A DNA stretch of 41,865 nucleotides from the NCBI RefSeq assembly GCF_000384655.1, contig NZ_ARQI01000102.1, positions 1-41,865 on the forward strand. The letters are read 5' to 3'. Position numbers and translations under genes: made by a program. This stretch comes from Brachyspira innocens ATCC 29796. GTDB lineage: Bacteria > Spirochaetota > Brachyspiria > Brachyspirales > Brachyspiraceae. Position 1 is the first letter of the stretch, and each line of letters starts with the position of its first letter. Shown one piece after another: positions 13,417 through 17,444 of the stretch. A model generated the notes under the pieces. It searched no databases. It was not told where the DNA came from and saw only the letters and a list, made by a program, of their open reading frames with translations.

Positions 13417-13782
13417 TTATTTCAAAATTATCATCTCTTTGTTCAAAAAAGCATTTTTTAAATCTTTATCAATATCCTTAGCTTTAAATACAATTGTATA
13501 CTTATTTGTATCAATTATTTCTTCTTTTGTTTTATCATATAAAGTACATATTATACGATAACAACCATTCTTATATTCTTTGATAGCAACAGCTAAAAGA
13601 TTACTATCGGCTTCAAGTCTTTGTTTAATATCTTTGTTCTTAAAAAATGCTATTACATCTTCCATTTTTAATAAATTACATTTTTTAACTTGCAAAAAAA
13701 TATTTTTATTTTTTAAGAAAAATATAGTACCAATTACTAATGCAGCTGCAGTTCCTATTATCGGAAATATAACTTTTTTCAT
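13417..13782 (-). CDS. Small membrane-anchored protein with C-terminal 'MIILK' domain (copy A)
   Basis: A 121-residue protein. Residues 4-23 form one N-terminal membrane segment. After a short linker (VKKCNLLKMEDVIAFF) it ends in a domain of about 60 residues: LLAVAIKEYKNG, YRIICTLYDK, FKAKDIDKDLKNAF, then NKEMIILK at the terminus. The same domain ends the next three proteins upstream in the operon. It is closest to copy B (13845), with which it also shares the membrane anchor and linker, so the two are recent duplicates. The function is unknown. It is the last gene of the AAA+ cassette. Confidence 0.75.
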   Translation of the reverse strand: MKKVIFPIIGTAAALVIGTIFFLKNKNIFLQVKKCNLLKMEDVIAFFKNKDIKQRLEADSNLLAVAIKEYKNGCYRIICTLYDKTKEEIIDTNKYTIVFKAKDIDKDLKNAFLNKEMIILK

Positions 13783-13844
13783 AGTTTATCCTTCAATATA
13801 CTATTACATTTCACTTAATATTTATATAATAGTAAATACAATTT

Positions 13845-14225
13845 TTACTTTAAAACAATCATATCTTTATCAGAAAAAGCATTTTTTAAATCTTCATTAA
13901 TATCTTTAGCTTTAAATATTAAAGGAAATTTAAAATCTTTTAGTATTTCTTCTTCTCTTTTATCATACAAAGTACATATTATACGATAACCATTATTTTT
14001 ATGTTCTTTAATAACAACGGCAAGCAAATCATCATCATTTCTAAGAATGTCAATAACTTCTTTTCTTTTAAATGATTTTAGTATTTCTTCCATTGTTAAT
14101 AAATCCACTTCTATAATATCAAAAGCAATATTATCAATATTAAATCTTTTTCTATAAAGTACAATTGATACTACCACTATTATCAAAATAACTGCTGATA
14201 CTATAAAAAATACATACTCATTCAT
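13845..14225 (-). CDS. Small membrane-anchored protein with C-terminal 'MIVLK' domain (copy B)
   Basis: A 126-residue protein with an N-terminal membrane helix (residues 5-24, followed by YRKR, suggesting the C-terminus is cytoplasmic). The linker VDLLTMEEILKSFKRK matches copy A. The shared C-terminal domain runs LLAVVIKEHKNN, YRIICTLYDKREEEIL, FKAKDINEDLKNAF and SDKDMIVLK. It starts 16 nt after the upstream gene, with AAGG before the ATG. The function is unknown; it is inferred to be a partner or substrate of the AAA+ ATPase at the head of the operon. Confidence 0.75.
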   Translation of the reverse strand: MNEYVFFIVSAVILIIVVVSIVLYRKRFNIDNIAFDIIEVDLLTMEEILKSFKRKEVIDILRNDDDLLAVVIKEHKNNGYRIICTLYDKREEEILKDFKFPLIFKAKDINEDLKNAFSDKDMIVLK

Positions 14226-14241
14226 AAAAAATACCTTGAAG

Positions 14242-14568
14242 TTATTTCAATACAATCATATCTTTATTGCCAAAACTCTGTTTAGTTTTTTCATCTAGCC
14301 CATTACTTTCAATACCAATGGCATCTTCTTCCATATCAACAATTTCTTCTTGAGCCTCATCATACAAGCAATTAACAACTCTATAATTATTATTTCCTAA
14401 GTTCTCCTTTATAGAAACAGCAATTATATCTCTATCTTCTTCTAATTTTCTTAACCTATTTCTACTTTTAAAAAAGTTTACTATATTACTTGCAAAATTA
14501 ATAATCTTTACAAATATTCTCTTAATAAAATTCCATATTCTTCTTAAAAGATCAATAAAATAACTCAT
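14242..14568 (-). CDS. Small protein with amphipathic N-terminus and C-terminal 'MIVLK' domain (copy C)
   Basis: 108 residues from the ATG at 14568, which has GGAG 7 nt upstream. The N-terminal 40 residues (FIDLLRRIWNFIKRIF, then VKIINFASNIVNFF) are basic and amphipathic, suggesting peripheral membrane association and not a clean transmembrane helix. The C-terminal domain keeps the family pattern: IIAVSIKEN, NYRVVNCLYDEAQEEIV, KQSFGNKDMIVLK. It sits 6 nt after the preceding gene. The function is unknown. Confidence 0.72.
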   Translation of the reverse strand: MSYFIDLLRRIWNFIKRIFVKIINFASNIVNFFKSRNRLRKLEEDRDIIAVSIKENLGNNNYRVVNCLYDEAQEEIVDMEEDAIGIESNGLDEKTKQSFGNKDMIVLK

Positions 14569-14580
14569 ATACAATCTCCA

Positions 14581-15066
14581 TTATTTTAATACTATCATAT
14601 TTTTATCACCAAATTGGGATAATAAATCTCTATCTAAACTATTAGTATATATAACCCAATGTTTAGCATCTCCATTTAATAGAGGCTCATTATTTTTATC
14701 CAAAAAACATATTTGTATTTCAAATTTATATTTATTAGATTTATTTGTACTACTATTATCTAAAATACAAGCTGATGAATACAATTTTGGATTGAATTCT
14801 TTTTTCACAAGAGCTATACATTTTTCTAATGATAAAGTATCCATATGCAACTCTTCCAGCTTCCAAGCTATTTTTAAAGCTCTAAATAATTCATCTACTT
14901 GAACATTATTAATAGTATCTGATATTTCTTTTTCTATCTTTTCAACAATATTTTTTACACTTTCACCTGTATTCACTGTTACATTTTTTAGTGCTTTTTT
15001 TACACTATCTACTAATTCATCTTTTAAATTAAAATTATTAGTATTATTTTTATCATTTTGTTCCAT
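14581..15066 (-). CDS. Soluble helical protein with C-terminal 'MIVLK' tail (copy D)
   Basis: A 161-residue protein without a membrane segment. Residues about 12-60 form a long helical region (LKDELVDSVKKALKNV, VKNIVEKIEKEISD), followed by LFRALKIAWKLEEL. The last 65 residues are a divergent version of the shared domain (YKFEIQICFLDKNNEPLL, DRDLLSQF, GDKNMIVLK). It starts 3 nt after the AAA+ gene stop, with AGGAGA inside the end of that gene, so translation of the two is probably coupled. The function is unknown. Confidence 0.72.
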   Translation of the reverse strand: MEQNDKNNTNNFNLKDELVDSVKKALKNVTVNTGESVKNIVEKIEKEISDTINNVQVDELFRALKIAWKLEELHMDTLSLEKCIALVKKEFNPKLYSSACILDNSSTNKSNKYKFEIQICFLDKNNEPLLNGDAKHWVIYTNSLDRDLLSQFGDKNMIVLK

Positions 15067-15069
15067 TTT

Positions 15070-16431
15070 TTATTCTCCTATTTTTTTATTAATAGTTTCA
15101 TCTTCTGATTTATCTAAATCATCATTATCATCTGAATCATCAGAATCTTTATTTTTCACTACATAATTTTTAGTTTCTAAATTTTCTTTTATCTGCTTTT
15201 TTAACTCAGTTTTTCTGTTTGCCTTAGCTTTAACAGCATCAAATTTTTCTTTTGATTTTTTGAATACTTCTTCAAATAATTCTCTATTAATATCAGAATT
15301 TTTTTGTATACTTGTTATAAGAACTTCTAAAATCGTATTTTTTATTTCTCTAGGAGCAAAACCTTCTATTTTTTCACTTAAAGAAAGTAAGAAATCATCA
15401 TCTTTTACCTCCTCATCAATAGGAGCTTTACTTGGTATCATCTTTTTTATAATTTTTAATCTCATATTTTTATCAGGAAGTTCAAACTGTATATGTTTTA
15501 AAATTCTGCTTTCAAATGCACTATCATAATTTTCATGCAAGTTTGTAGCAAAAACAACTATACCATTAAAAGATTCAAGTAATATTAACATTTGACTTCT
15601 TAAAGAGTTAACAGCCTGATCTGAACTTGAAGAAACATTTGTTATACGCTTTCCCAAAAAAGAATCAGCCTCATCAAAAAATAAAAGACAATTTTCTTTT
15701 TTAGCTATTTCAAAAGCTTGCACTAAATTTTTAGGAGCATCGCCTACAAATTTAGACTCTATATCTGAATAGTTGAGAGAAAGTATTTTTAAATTTAATT
15801 CGCTTGCTAGTATATGTGCTGACATAGTTTTACCAGTACCTGGAGGTCCGTAAAAATTAATTATACATCTAGGTACAGGGTCTATATCTTCAAATCCCCA
15901 TTCATAATATATTTTATTAATACTTTTCACCATAGTTATAACTTTTTCTAATTCTTCAAAAGTAGAATCATTTAAAACTATTTGGTTAATATTGTATTTT
16001 GGTTCTGTAGGATTTACATTTAATTTTACAGTATCTTCATCATTATTATTACTTTTATTCTTTTTATTTGATGGTATTAAAAATTTATTTTCTATCTCTT
16101 CTTTTGTATAGTTAAAAGCCACAATAATTTTTACTTTTAATTTATTTTCTAATATAAATTTATTTTCTATATGTGATAATCTGGCTTTTAATAAAGATAT
16201 TTTTACATCTTGATCATCATTATATTCTATATCTTCTTTATCCACATAAGCAATATTATTTGTCATTTTTAGCTTATAATCATCATAATTATATATCAAA
16301 AAAATAATTACGCTTTTTAATCTTTTATCTTTAATTTCAAAATCTTCTAGTTTTTCAGTAATTTCATCATACAACTCAGAATCAGTATTATTATCATTAG
16401 TTAATTGATAGACTTCTTTCAACACTCCCAT
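15070..16431 (-). CDS. AAA+ ATPase, SpoVK/Ycf46/Vps4-like, head of the MIVLK cassette
   Basis: 453 residues from the ATG at 16431 (GGAGGT upstream). Residues 1-150 are an unrecognised N-terminal region ending in a low-complexity K/N/D linker. The classic AAA module follows: Walker A GPPGTGKT (195-202), a pore-loop-like SKFVGDAP (226-233), Walker B LLFFDEAD (249-256), sensor-1 Asn297 in FATN, and an arginine finger candidate Arg309 in ESRI. A lid region and an acidic D/E-rich tail complete it. Such single-ring AAA proteins remodel or extract protein partners. It heads an operon of four small proteins with a common C-terminal domain, which are the likely partners. A good promoter lies at 16512-16539. 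Confidence 0.87.
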   Translation of the reverse strand: MGVLKEVYQLTNDNNTDSELYDEITEKLEDFEIKDKRLKSVIIFLIYNYDDYKLKMTNNIAYVDKEDIEYNDDQDVKISLLKARLSHIENKFILENKLKVKIIVAFNYTKEEIENKFLIPSNKKNKSNNNDEDTVKLNVNPTEPKYNINQIVLNDSTFEELEKVITMVKSINKIYYEWGFEDIDPVPRCIINFYGPPGTGKTMSAHILASELNLKILSLNYSDIESKFVGDAPKNLVQAFEIAKKENCLLFFDEADSFLGKRITNVSSSSDQAVNSLRSQMLILLESFNGIVVFATNLHENYDSAFESRILKHIQFELPDKNMRLKIIKKMIPSKAPIDEEVKDDDFLLSLSEKIEGFAPREIKNTILEVLITSIQKNSDINRELFEEVFKKSKEKFDAVKAKANRKTELKKQIKENLETKNYVVKNKDSDDSDDNDDLDKSEDETINKKIGE

Positions 16432-16511
16432 AACACCTCCAATAAAAAATATTATCACACTAATATATAAATTATTATAATAATATTTAAATATATTAAC
16501 ATATATTAAAC

Positions 16512-16539
16512 ATTATAAACTAATTACAATATTTGTCAA
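16512..16539 (-). promoter_or_regulatory. Promoter of the AAA+ cassette
   Basis: On the minus strand there is TTGACA (16539-16534), a 16-bp spacer and TATAAT (16517-16512). Both hexamers are perfect. It lies about 80 nt upstream of the AAA+ start codon. Confidence 0.7.
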
Positions 16540-16565
16540 TAGTATTTATTATATATTTTTAAATA

Positions 16566-16604
16566 AAAGTATATTTTATATTACTATAATATAAAATATA
16601 CTTT
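16566..16604. promoter_or_regulatory. Perfect 18-bp inverted repeat between divergent promoters
   Basis: The arms at 16566-16583 and 16587-16604 are exact reverse complements with a 3-base loop (CTA). The site is upstream of both the AAA+ cassette promoter and the promoter of the small membrane protein, so it cannot be the terminator of either. It is a candidate operator or cruciform site. A weaker AT repeat (TTAAATTT / AAATTTAA) follows further right. Confidence 0.55.
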
Positions 16605-16689
16605 AAAATAATAAAATTAAATTTAAAAAACATATAAAAATTTAATATAAAATAAATACTACTTTAAAAAAATTTTATAATATTATTTA

Positions 16690-16717
16690 TTGACTTTTTT
16701 AAAATATTTAATATAAT
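16690..16717 (+). promoter_or_regulatory. Promoter of the small membrane protein at 16748
   Basis: TTGACT (16690-16695), a 16-bp spacer and TATAAT (16712-16717), about 30 nt upstream of the start codon. Confidence 0.7.
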
Positions 16718-16747
16718 TTATCTAAATATTATATGGAGGAATATTAT

Positions 16748-17014
16748 ATGTTATGGTGGTTATTAGGTGCTGCTCTGCTTGGTGCTGCTGTTTTATTGAC
16801 TTTAGATGCTTTAGCTGATATCTTAAGAAAAAAATATCCAAATGCTAATTATGCTGTTATAAAAAAAGTAAAGAGAAATTTTAATAGCGGTAATTATAAT
16901 GAAATCAAAGTTGATTTATACAATGGAAATGGAAGAAAAATGCAAAGAGCATCTATTGAAGCAGAAGAAATTTCAGATGAAATCGAAGAAGGTGAAGTTT
17001 TAGAATTATATTAA
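16748..17014 (+). CDS. Small membrane-anchored protein related in design to the MIVLK cassette (copy E)
   Basis: 88 residues from the ATG at 16748; GGAGGA at 16735-16740 sets this start. An N-terminal membrane segment (WWLLGAALLGAAVLLTL) is followed by a domain of about 55 residues. Its layout mirrors the small proteins of the divergent AAA+ operon: NYAVIKKVKRN, NYNEIKVDLYNGNGRK, ASIEAEEISDEI and the terminal GEVLELY. The similarity is weak and rests on pattern, so homology is inferred. It is transcribed divergently from the AAA+ operon across a region with two strong promoters and a palindrome. Confidence 0.7.
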   Translation: MLWWLLGAALLGAAVLLTLDALADILRKKYPNANYAVIKKVKRNFNSGNYNEIKVDLYNGNGRKMQRASIEAEEISDEIEEGEVLELY

Positions 17015-17040: not shown

Positions 17041-17078
17041 AAAGACAGAATAGTTTTATAATCTATTTTGTCTTTTTT
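17041..17078. terminator. Bidirectional terminator
   Basis: AAAGACAGAATAG (17041-17053) pairs with CTATTTTGTCTTT (17063-17075), flanked by A and T runs on opposite sides. It ends the gene at 16748 on the plus strand and overlaps the end of the decayed gene on the minus strand. Confidence 0.75.
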
Positions 17079-17444
17079 GTTATTTTAAAATTATTAAAAA
17101 TCTGTCTATTATTAAATTTTGATTCTGCTAATTTATCATAAAGCCTATTGGACATTACCTTTAAACTAGCAAATGTAAGCCCTCCTGAAGCCATACCTAC
17201 TAATATTGGTATAACTTTTGCCGCCACACTTTTGCAGCTACATCTTTAGTTAATTTGATGCCTACTAATTTTAACAAAGCCTCAATAGTATTCCACCCTA
17301 TAACTTTAGTTAATGCCATTTTAGGAAGCTGTTTTAAAGCAACACCTGACAAATACTGAGCTACAGTTTTTAATTAAGCCTGAGTATCTCAAAACATAAC
17401 ACTTAAATAAATCAAAACAATATTAGCCTCATCATTAGTTAAAA
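17063..17444 (-). pseudogene. Decayed gene, frameshift and in-frame stops (possibly EcsC-like)
   Basis: Reading the minus strand, a protein-like sequence runs from after the groEL terminator (LTNDEANIVLIYLSVMF), through two in-frame stops, then QYLSGVALKQLPKMALTKVI and KLVGIKLTKDVAAK. A one-base frameshift near 17230 leads into VAAKVIPILVGMASGGLTFA and SLKVMSNRLYDKLAE, ending at TAG 17063. The glycine-rich IPILVGMASGG block next to repeated K/A helices resembles the C-terminus of EcsC-type proteins; this is tentative. No intact frame exceeds 60 codons, so it is read as a remnant. Confidence 0.6.

Follow-up and report, generated by a model that had tools for sequence, protein, structure and literature searches.

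The anti-phage system IetAS consists of the AAA+ ATPase IetA/IteA and the protease IetS, and PMC9958689 gave its mechanism as not yet described. Two further precedents concern AAA+ proteins and their clients: in ESCRT, C-terminal tails and MIT domains form a binding code (PMC9477494), and in TRIP13-HORMA modules and MoxR-vWA nucleoside triphosphate-dependent conflict systems an AAA+ remodeller serves as a threshold switch with variable effectors (PMC7159879). Here we analyzed a 41,865-nucleotide stretch of Brachyspira innocens ATCC 29796 (contig NZ_ARQI01000102.1; hereafter the window), in which an AAA+ ATPase gene is followed by genes for four small proteins (A, B, C, and C2) with a common C-terminal domain, while a fifth small protein (D) is divergently transcribed. 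We refer to these genes together as the cassette. We give about even chances to the view that it is an accessory, horizontally spread, and probably anti-invader cassette, in which a hexameric pore-loop AAA+ remodeller acts on membrane-anchored proteins carrying the tail domain.

The ATPase and the small proteins

The ATPase belongs to the classical AAA clade (PF00004, E = 1.1e-28, its only match in the Pfam scan). Its nearest models were IetA of PADLOC (8e-32) and IteA of NCBIfam (1.3e-28), with a weaker match to TRIP13 (2e-10), and structurally its core resembles those of proteasome Rpt, p97, FtsH, and Vps4, as in a standard classical AAA ring subunit. The features of a threading remodeller are intact and conserved among homologues: a Walker A motif, the FFDEAD segment of Walker B, and SKFVGD in pore loop 1, which reads SKYVGE in most relatives. 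We take SK[FY]VG[DE] to be the aromatic-hydrophobic-Gly motif typical of AAA proteins that thread their substrates. A maximum-likelihood tree of AAA domains placed the 15 cassette ATPases together, separated from the other sequences by a branch with support 95/89. Beside them, as an apparent sister group (support 92/91), stand ATPases that adjoin ZorA/ZorB-like genes.

The preliminary description of this locus had assigned different N-termini and one C-terminal domain to the four small proteins. All five operon open reading frames (ORFs) and D were found at the positions it gave, and hydropathy and amphipathic moment agree with the N-termini it described. C and C2 each contain one hydrophobic helix (Kyte-Doolittle 19-residue mean 3.4 and 2.4), the N-terminal part of B is cationic and amphipathic (moment 0.81, charge +3), and that of A is soluble. 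The C-terminal regions were aligned by hhalign with probabilities of 93% (A/B), 94% (A/C), and 95% (B/C). After removal of the last 8 residues, the values were 44%, 75%, and 85%; since the signal persists, the whole domain and not the tail alone is common to the three proteins. Column shuffles gave, for some pairs, an anomalous hhalign score near 130 in approximately 1 per 40-60 shuffles, which we took for a program artefact. Homology was therefore tested again with hmmsearch and shuffled sequences. A hidden Markov model (HMM) built from the C-terminal 70 residues of class C proteins retrieved B (E = 2.6e-11) and A (4.6e-5) of the window; among 5,600 shuffled sequences, the best reached 0.055. 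Judged by sequence comparison, the C-terminal domains of A, B, and C, of approximately 60 residues and all ending MI[VI]LK, are homologous. C2 being a duplicate of C, there are three classes of tail-domain proteins in addition to D.

The domain is also portable. On a Planktothrix plasmid, six tail-domain proteins precede the ATPase; one of the six is an Hsp70-TPR protein, and its C-terminal 98 residues share 53% identity with those of a one-helix neighbour (E = 2e-32). On the Anabaena cylindrica plasmid pANACY.04 (L228 8001-17194), a homologue of the Planktothrix Hsp70 protein adjoins a DUF87 protein, and the annotated genes of that stretch include no AAA ATPase and no small tail proteins.

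AlphaFold modelled C as a membrane helix (residues 3-27) followed by a domain of topology b-a-a-b-b-b-a-b (b, strand; a, helix), with predicted confidence (pLDDT) above 90 in most 10-residue blocks. A Foldseek search with this model found no Protein Data Bank (PDB) match and no viral match at E < 0.001, and the sequence profile of the tail domain gave nothing convincing against the PDB. The domain has no curated Pfam or NCBIfam family and no PADLOC match. A single weak match, unnamed, was found in PHROGs, and no phage record searched contained a tail protein.

D was matched at E = 8.3e-9 (best shuffle 0.041) by an HMM built from D proteins of other phyla and, being homologous to them, belongs to the cassette. 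D had been described as a membrane protein of the same design as the other four. It is indeed a membrane protein and a conserved component, but hhalign gave at most 14% between its C-terminal part and the domain of A, B, and C; D was accordingly rejected, at this sensitivity, as a fifth carrier of the shared tail.

Co-variation of the tails

We compared tails in 10 systems with 20000 permutations. For A and C, the last 10 residues scored 18.9 within systems versus 11.7 between systems (0/20000 permutations), compared with p = 0.06 for the preceding 50 residues and p = 0.23 for the N-terminal parts. With one system per clade, the result for the A-C tail was p = 0.003. The tails of A and B co-varied as well (92/20000, p = 0.005; body, p = 0.29), and B and C, which are closer paralogues, co-varied over the whole domain. 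Pairs of A/C tails illustrate the pattern: MIVLK/MIVLK in the window, QLNFK/ELNLK in L060, and YVIPFED/FVIPVE in L180. In a gammaproteobacterial relative, a transmembrane winged helix-turn-helix (TM-wHTH) protein ends in TEIELD and a TerB protein (PF05099, 1.4e-10) in QTIELD, with no other similarity between them. These two proteins, both ending in IELD, close the row at L195 5525-9074, in which they follow a WYL regulator, an ATPase, a transmembrane protein, and a soluble protein.

Between A and C, co-variation is seen in the tails and does not extend to the remainder of the domain, which suggests one common binding partner. We favour a short C-terminal signature that would be read by a common partner, for which the ATPase is the natural candidate. 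The preliminary description had proposed the tail as the target of the ATPase; co-variation and the portability of the domain lend this idea indirect support, and the ATPase-tail contact itself is one that we infer.

Several observations weigh against this reading. The independent clades in the test number 6, which is few; gene conversion could mimic the signal; and co-variation is equally expected from contacts between tails. In the model of C, residues 122-124 of the tail form the last strand, at the edge of the domain, and the N-terminal region of the ATPase, which is alpha/beta, is modelled at low confidence. The tail is thus modelled as part of the folded domain and would be more than a plain free degron. 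If folded in when isolated, as modelled, it would need to be pulled out or to be recognized as an edge strand.

These points lead to another arrangement, in which A, B, and C exchange C-terminal strands to form a strand-swapped membrane polymer, disassembled by the ATPase through some other site in the way that Vps4 recycles ESCRT-III. The edge position of the tail, its co-variation among paralogues, and the co-variation of B and C over the whole domain speak for such an assembly. We nevertheless consider it rather unlikely: the TM-wHTH and TerB proteins share only their last residues ([TQ]xIELD), which favours a tag read by a third partner.

Distribution, neighbours, and layout of the cassette

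Among 26 Brachyspira genomes, the 5 with the ATPase (E <= 1e-80) are also the 5 with tail proteins, and the remaining 21 have neither at comparable scores; if the two were independent, identical sets of five would arise with a chance of 1 in 65,780. Every genome of the genus also gives a second match, to an AAA protein of FtsH size. The small proteins are thus found together with the ATPase, and the conserved neighbourhood is present in Brachyspira, Bacteroidales, Clostridia, and a cyanobacterial plasmid. Within Brachyspira the order is D-ATPase-A-B-C in G022 and ATPase-A-B-C in G021, with a likely decayed remnant of D upstream; in G017 and G002, ATPase-A-B-C is accompanied by additional membrane and B-like genes. 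In Bacteroidales the order is A-B-C-D-ATPase (L059, L178, L179; partial in L075 and L161). A second cassette type has a large A of approximately 640 aa (L060, L062, L180; A is split in L061), and shorter sets were found in a Clostridia genome (L183) and a Bacteroidales genome (L181). Approximately 1.5% of sampled Bacteroidales carry the cassette (6/393, centre genome included).

Rows of the cassette clade come from Spirochaetota, Bacteroidota, Bacillota, and Cyanobacteriota. Since a single ATPase clade spans four phyla, horizontal spread is the simplest reading. Caution is due for one contig, L060 (L035 in reverse), which lies in a Brachyspira bin with 7% contamination and whose genes group with those of a Bacteroides bin (L062); it is probably a contaminant. 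Six Bacteroidota loci (L184-L187, L190, L192) and a Clostridia locus (L182) with ATPase matches of 1e-88 to 1e-95 have none of the small proteins and were set aside as different systems.

The cassettes have further neighbours. In two Bacteroidales cassettes (L178 5996-6217, L179 6616-6837), the gene after that of the ATPase encodes a protein of 73 aa that looks alike in both, with a WYL regulator next in L179. Two cassettes of the second type are followed by a protein of approximately 250 aa with a Cys-containing C-terminus and by a radical SAM gene (L180 9256-11123, L062 9963-11826; PF04055, 8e-9 in L180), whose product may possibly modify a peptide. DUF1232 membrane proteins are encoded near three cassettes (L178 5212-5604, L060 8868-9233, L061 8005-8592).

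Signs of mobility were found in several places. The G022 cassette lies between groEL and uvrB, which are adjacent, with no cassette, in G016 and G014. Relatives are carried on plasmids and on one IMG/VR virus contig: when viral contigs were scanned with the ATPase, one real cassette (L075) was recovered, and the remaining contigs examined encode different AAA proteins. With the cyanobacterial ATPase as query, a second scan found nothing. The match of the ATPase to phrog_3757 (1.4e-53) was rejected as a sign of phage carriage, as this family also matches further AAA proteins of the genome as well as all control genomes.

Genes beside L179 match a DpdE/ZorD-like SNF2 helicase (at 3e-172) and a WYL regulator (at 8e-25), and Leo-type dynamin-like genes lie beside L059; these neighbours tentatively favour a role against invaders. 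WYL regulators also lie upstream of more distant systems (L195, L063). The surroundings of the Brachyspira loci, in contrast, are housekeeping genes with no defence neighbours, so that the defensive role suggested in the preliminary description has support from some relatives and none from this genus. Two further plasmids carry related ATPases. On that of Streptomyces sp. NBC_00467 (L074 3892-9879), the ATPase is accompanied by a pair of small proteins and by a CHAT-domain protein of approximately 1,200 aa, near a Shedu-like gene. On that of Lactobacillus paragasseri (L068 5935-6822), a lone ATPase is found next to integrase and AbiE genes; upstream of it lies a gene cluster of lantibiotic-dehydratase-like and AMP-binding type.

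In three of the five Brachyspira cassettes (G021, G002, G022), the ATPase frame is broken by a single-base indel, each time in a different place. B and C are open in all three; A is open too, apparently shortened at its start in G022, where a tandem repeat (codons RIASH repeated) lies between cassette and groEL (L034 7406-7702). The frameshifts may represent decay, assembly error, or phase variation, and, as they come from metagenome bins, could be assembly errors, which would lessen their weight. If they are real, loss of the ATPase frame with retention of the tail genes indicates that the small proteins are probably not poisons restrained by the ATPase; the ATPase is more likely needed for their action. 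The frameshifts thereby bear on the possibility that B and C or D damage membranes and that the ATPase, as their antitoxin, holds them in a disassembled state, in a module for plasmid or island maintenance or abortive infection. B does resemble membrane-active amphipathic helices, and a Comamonas relative on a 10-kb plasmid adjoins toxin-antitoxin genes, but unless the frameshifts are artefacts the three genomes speak against such a module, since a constitutive toxin could not be tolerated there, and we hold it to be improbable. Housekeeping or stress-linked membrane-protein quality control with no role in conflict, to which the FtsH/p97-related core, the cyanobacterial Hsp70-TPR fusion, and the housekeeping genes around the Brachyspira copies might point, is quite improbable given the sporadic presence of the cassette in Brachyspira and Bacteroidales, its differing sites with empty counterparts, its carriage on plasmids, and its lack of a protease of its own.

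In the window, the cassette lies between truB and groEL as a compact minus-strand operon in the order ATPase-A-B-C-C2 (gaps of 3, 6, 16, and 62 bp), with D divergent; C and C2 are a tandem duplication. Coordinates are collected in Table 1. Shine-Dalgarno placement suggests the true starts of the ATPase, B, and D. Two promoter-like sites between the ATPase and D would fit two facing promoters on the strength of their consensus match alone; such matches were overall no commoner than in shuffles, and the sole 12/12 match is the one before the ATPase. No Rfam element was found in the cassette region, and no flanking direct repeats of the kind that mark an insertion were found around the cassette. 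Between D and groEL, two small overlapping minus-strand ORFs with no Pfam match (17063-17352) look like the remains of one broken gene.

Table 1. Coordinates of cassette features (positions in the window unless a locus is named)
Feature	Position	Strand	Remarks
AAA+ ATPase	15070-16458	-	likely start ATG 16431 (Shine-Dalgarno placement)
Walker A GPPGTGKT	15826-15849	-	sequence; invariant or near-invariant columns among homologues
Pore loop 1 SKFVGD	15739-15756	-	alignment
Walker B LLFFDEAD	15664-15687	-	sequence and alignment
Class A, soluble helical N-part and shared C-terminal domain	14581-15066	-	end GDKNMIVLK
Class B, cationic amphipathic N-part and shared C-terminal domain	14242-14574	-	end GNKDMIVLK; likely start ATG 14568 (Shine-Dalgarno placement)
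Class C, one transmembrane helix and shared C-terminal domain	13845-14225	-	end SDKDMIVLK
C2, duplicate of C	13417-13782	-	end LNKEMIILK; 71% DNA identity to C over 201 nt
Class D, Gly/Ala-rich transmembrane helix and short beta-rich C-part	16733-17014	+	likely start ATG 16748 (Shine-Dalgarno placement)
C-terminal tails, last 10 residues	C 13848-13877; C2 13420-13449; B 14245-14274; A 14584-14613	-	
Promoter-like TTGACA-16-TATAAT, ATPase operon	16512-16539	-	12/12, consensus scan
Promoter-like TTGACT-16-TATAAT, D	16690-16717	+	11/12, consensus scan
Single-base ATPase frameshifts	L031 5268-6600; L033 5376-6706; L034 5544-6936		

Proposed mechanism and comparison with known systems

In the mechanism that we propose, the N-terminal parts of A, B, and C would place their C-terminal domains at the cytoplasmic face of the inner membrane, as a mixed assembly. 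The ATPase ring would grip the common C-terminal end of any subunit and pull or unfold it. In this way it would shift the assembly between two states, one quiet and one active at the membrane, and D would complete or anchor the complex. Extra modules in relatives (Hsp70-TPR, TerB, DUF1232) may act as sensors or effectors, as may the CHAT protease or ZorA/ZorB-like motors of more distant lineages. Phage defence, action of the ring on the tail, switching, and assembly at the cytoplasmic membrane surface are all steps that we infer. A broader proposal, which we regard as tentative and on balance doubtful, is that of a bacterial tail-coded AAA+ membrane machine with no described counterpart: a ring reading one short C-terminal strand common to differently anchored subunits and to fusions such as Hsp70-TPR. 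Tail and ring would co-evolve, each lineage having its own closed code, and the whole would act at the membrane against invading phages or plasmids.

Although no curated Pfam or NCBIfam family covers the tail domain, the cassette is found in four phyla or more, both on a plasmid and at chromosomal sites that vary. We judge it to be new on two grounds: its client proteins fall in no known family, and its layout is absent from the catalogues used, of which the one for defence systems (PADLOC) dates from 2023. Literature searches, which covered no preprints, returned no description of it, in line with the earlier statement that no described system has this layout.

With FtsH the cassette ATPase shares a homologous AAA core; the Pfam scan found no M41 protease domain in it. 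TRIP13-HORMA (CBASS) and MoxR-vWA systems share the theme of an AAA+ remodeller that switches variable effectors, and no HORMA, vWA, CD-NTase, or effector domain was found among the cassette proteins. Zorya is approached through the apparent sister clade. In the window cassette there was no significant ZorA or ZorB (ZorA1 matched the coiled part of A weakly, at 0.0024), nor were they seen by eye in the other tail-domain cassettes examined. Loci of the sister clade (L063 8977-13372, L064 8938-13376, L073 5794-10249, L226 5746-9716) combine the ATPase with an amphipathic protein of approximately 414-433 aa (measured in L063, L073, and L226) and ZorA-like and/or ZorB-like genes, L073 having a PDC-M27C-type helicase in addition; they possibly represent an undescribed Zorya-like system.

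IetAS is nearest by the ATPase models, and the cassette, too, is mobile and sporadic. However, the cassette ATPase reaches 100.2 bits against a curated NCBIfam cut-off of 510 for IteA, a fifth of it, and the four-class set of small proteins is absent from IetAS. The IetS partner is a subtilase-type protease, and Pfam and PADLOC scans found no protease family in any cassette protein.

Vps4-ESCRT-III and archaeal CdvC-CdvB are alike in outline, with one AAA+ ring and several paralogous membrane-acting clients. Pfam and NCBIfam searches found no MIT, Vps4 C-terminal, or ESCRT-III/PspA domain in the cassette proteins, and the client domain is alpha/beta in the model, unlike the helical hairpin of the ESCRT-III core. 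The likeness to Vps4 is best taken as analogy, not membership. If the proposed mechanism is true, bacteria would own a version of the arrangement known from ESCRT, one AAA ring with many tail-tagged membrane clients, as an accessory and probably defensive system.

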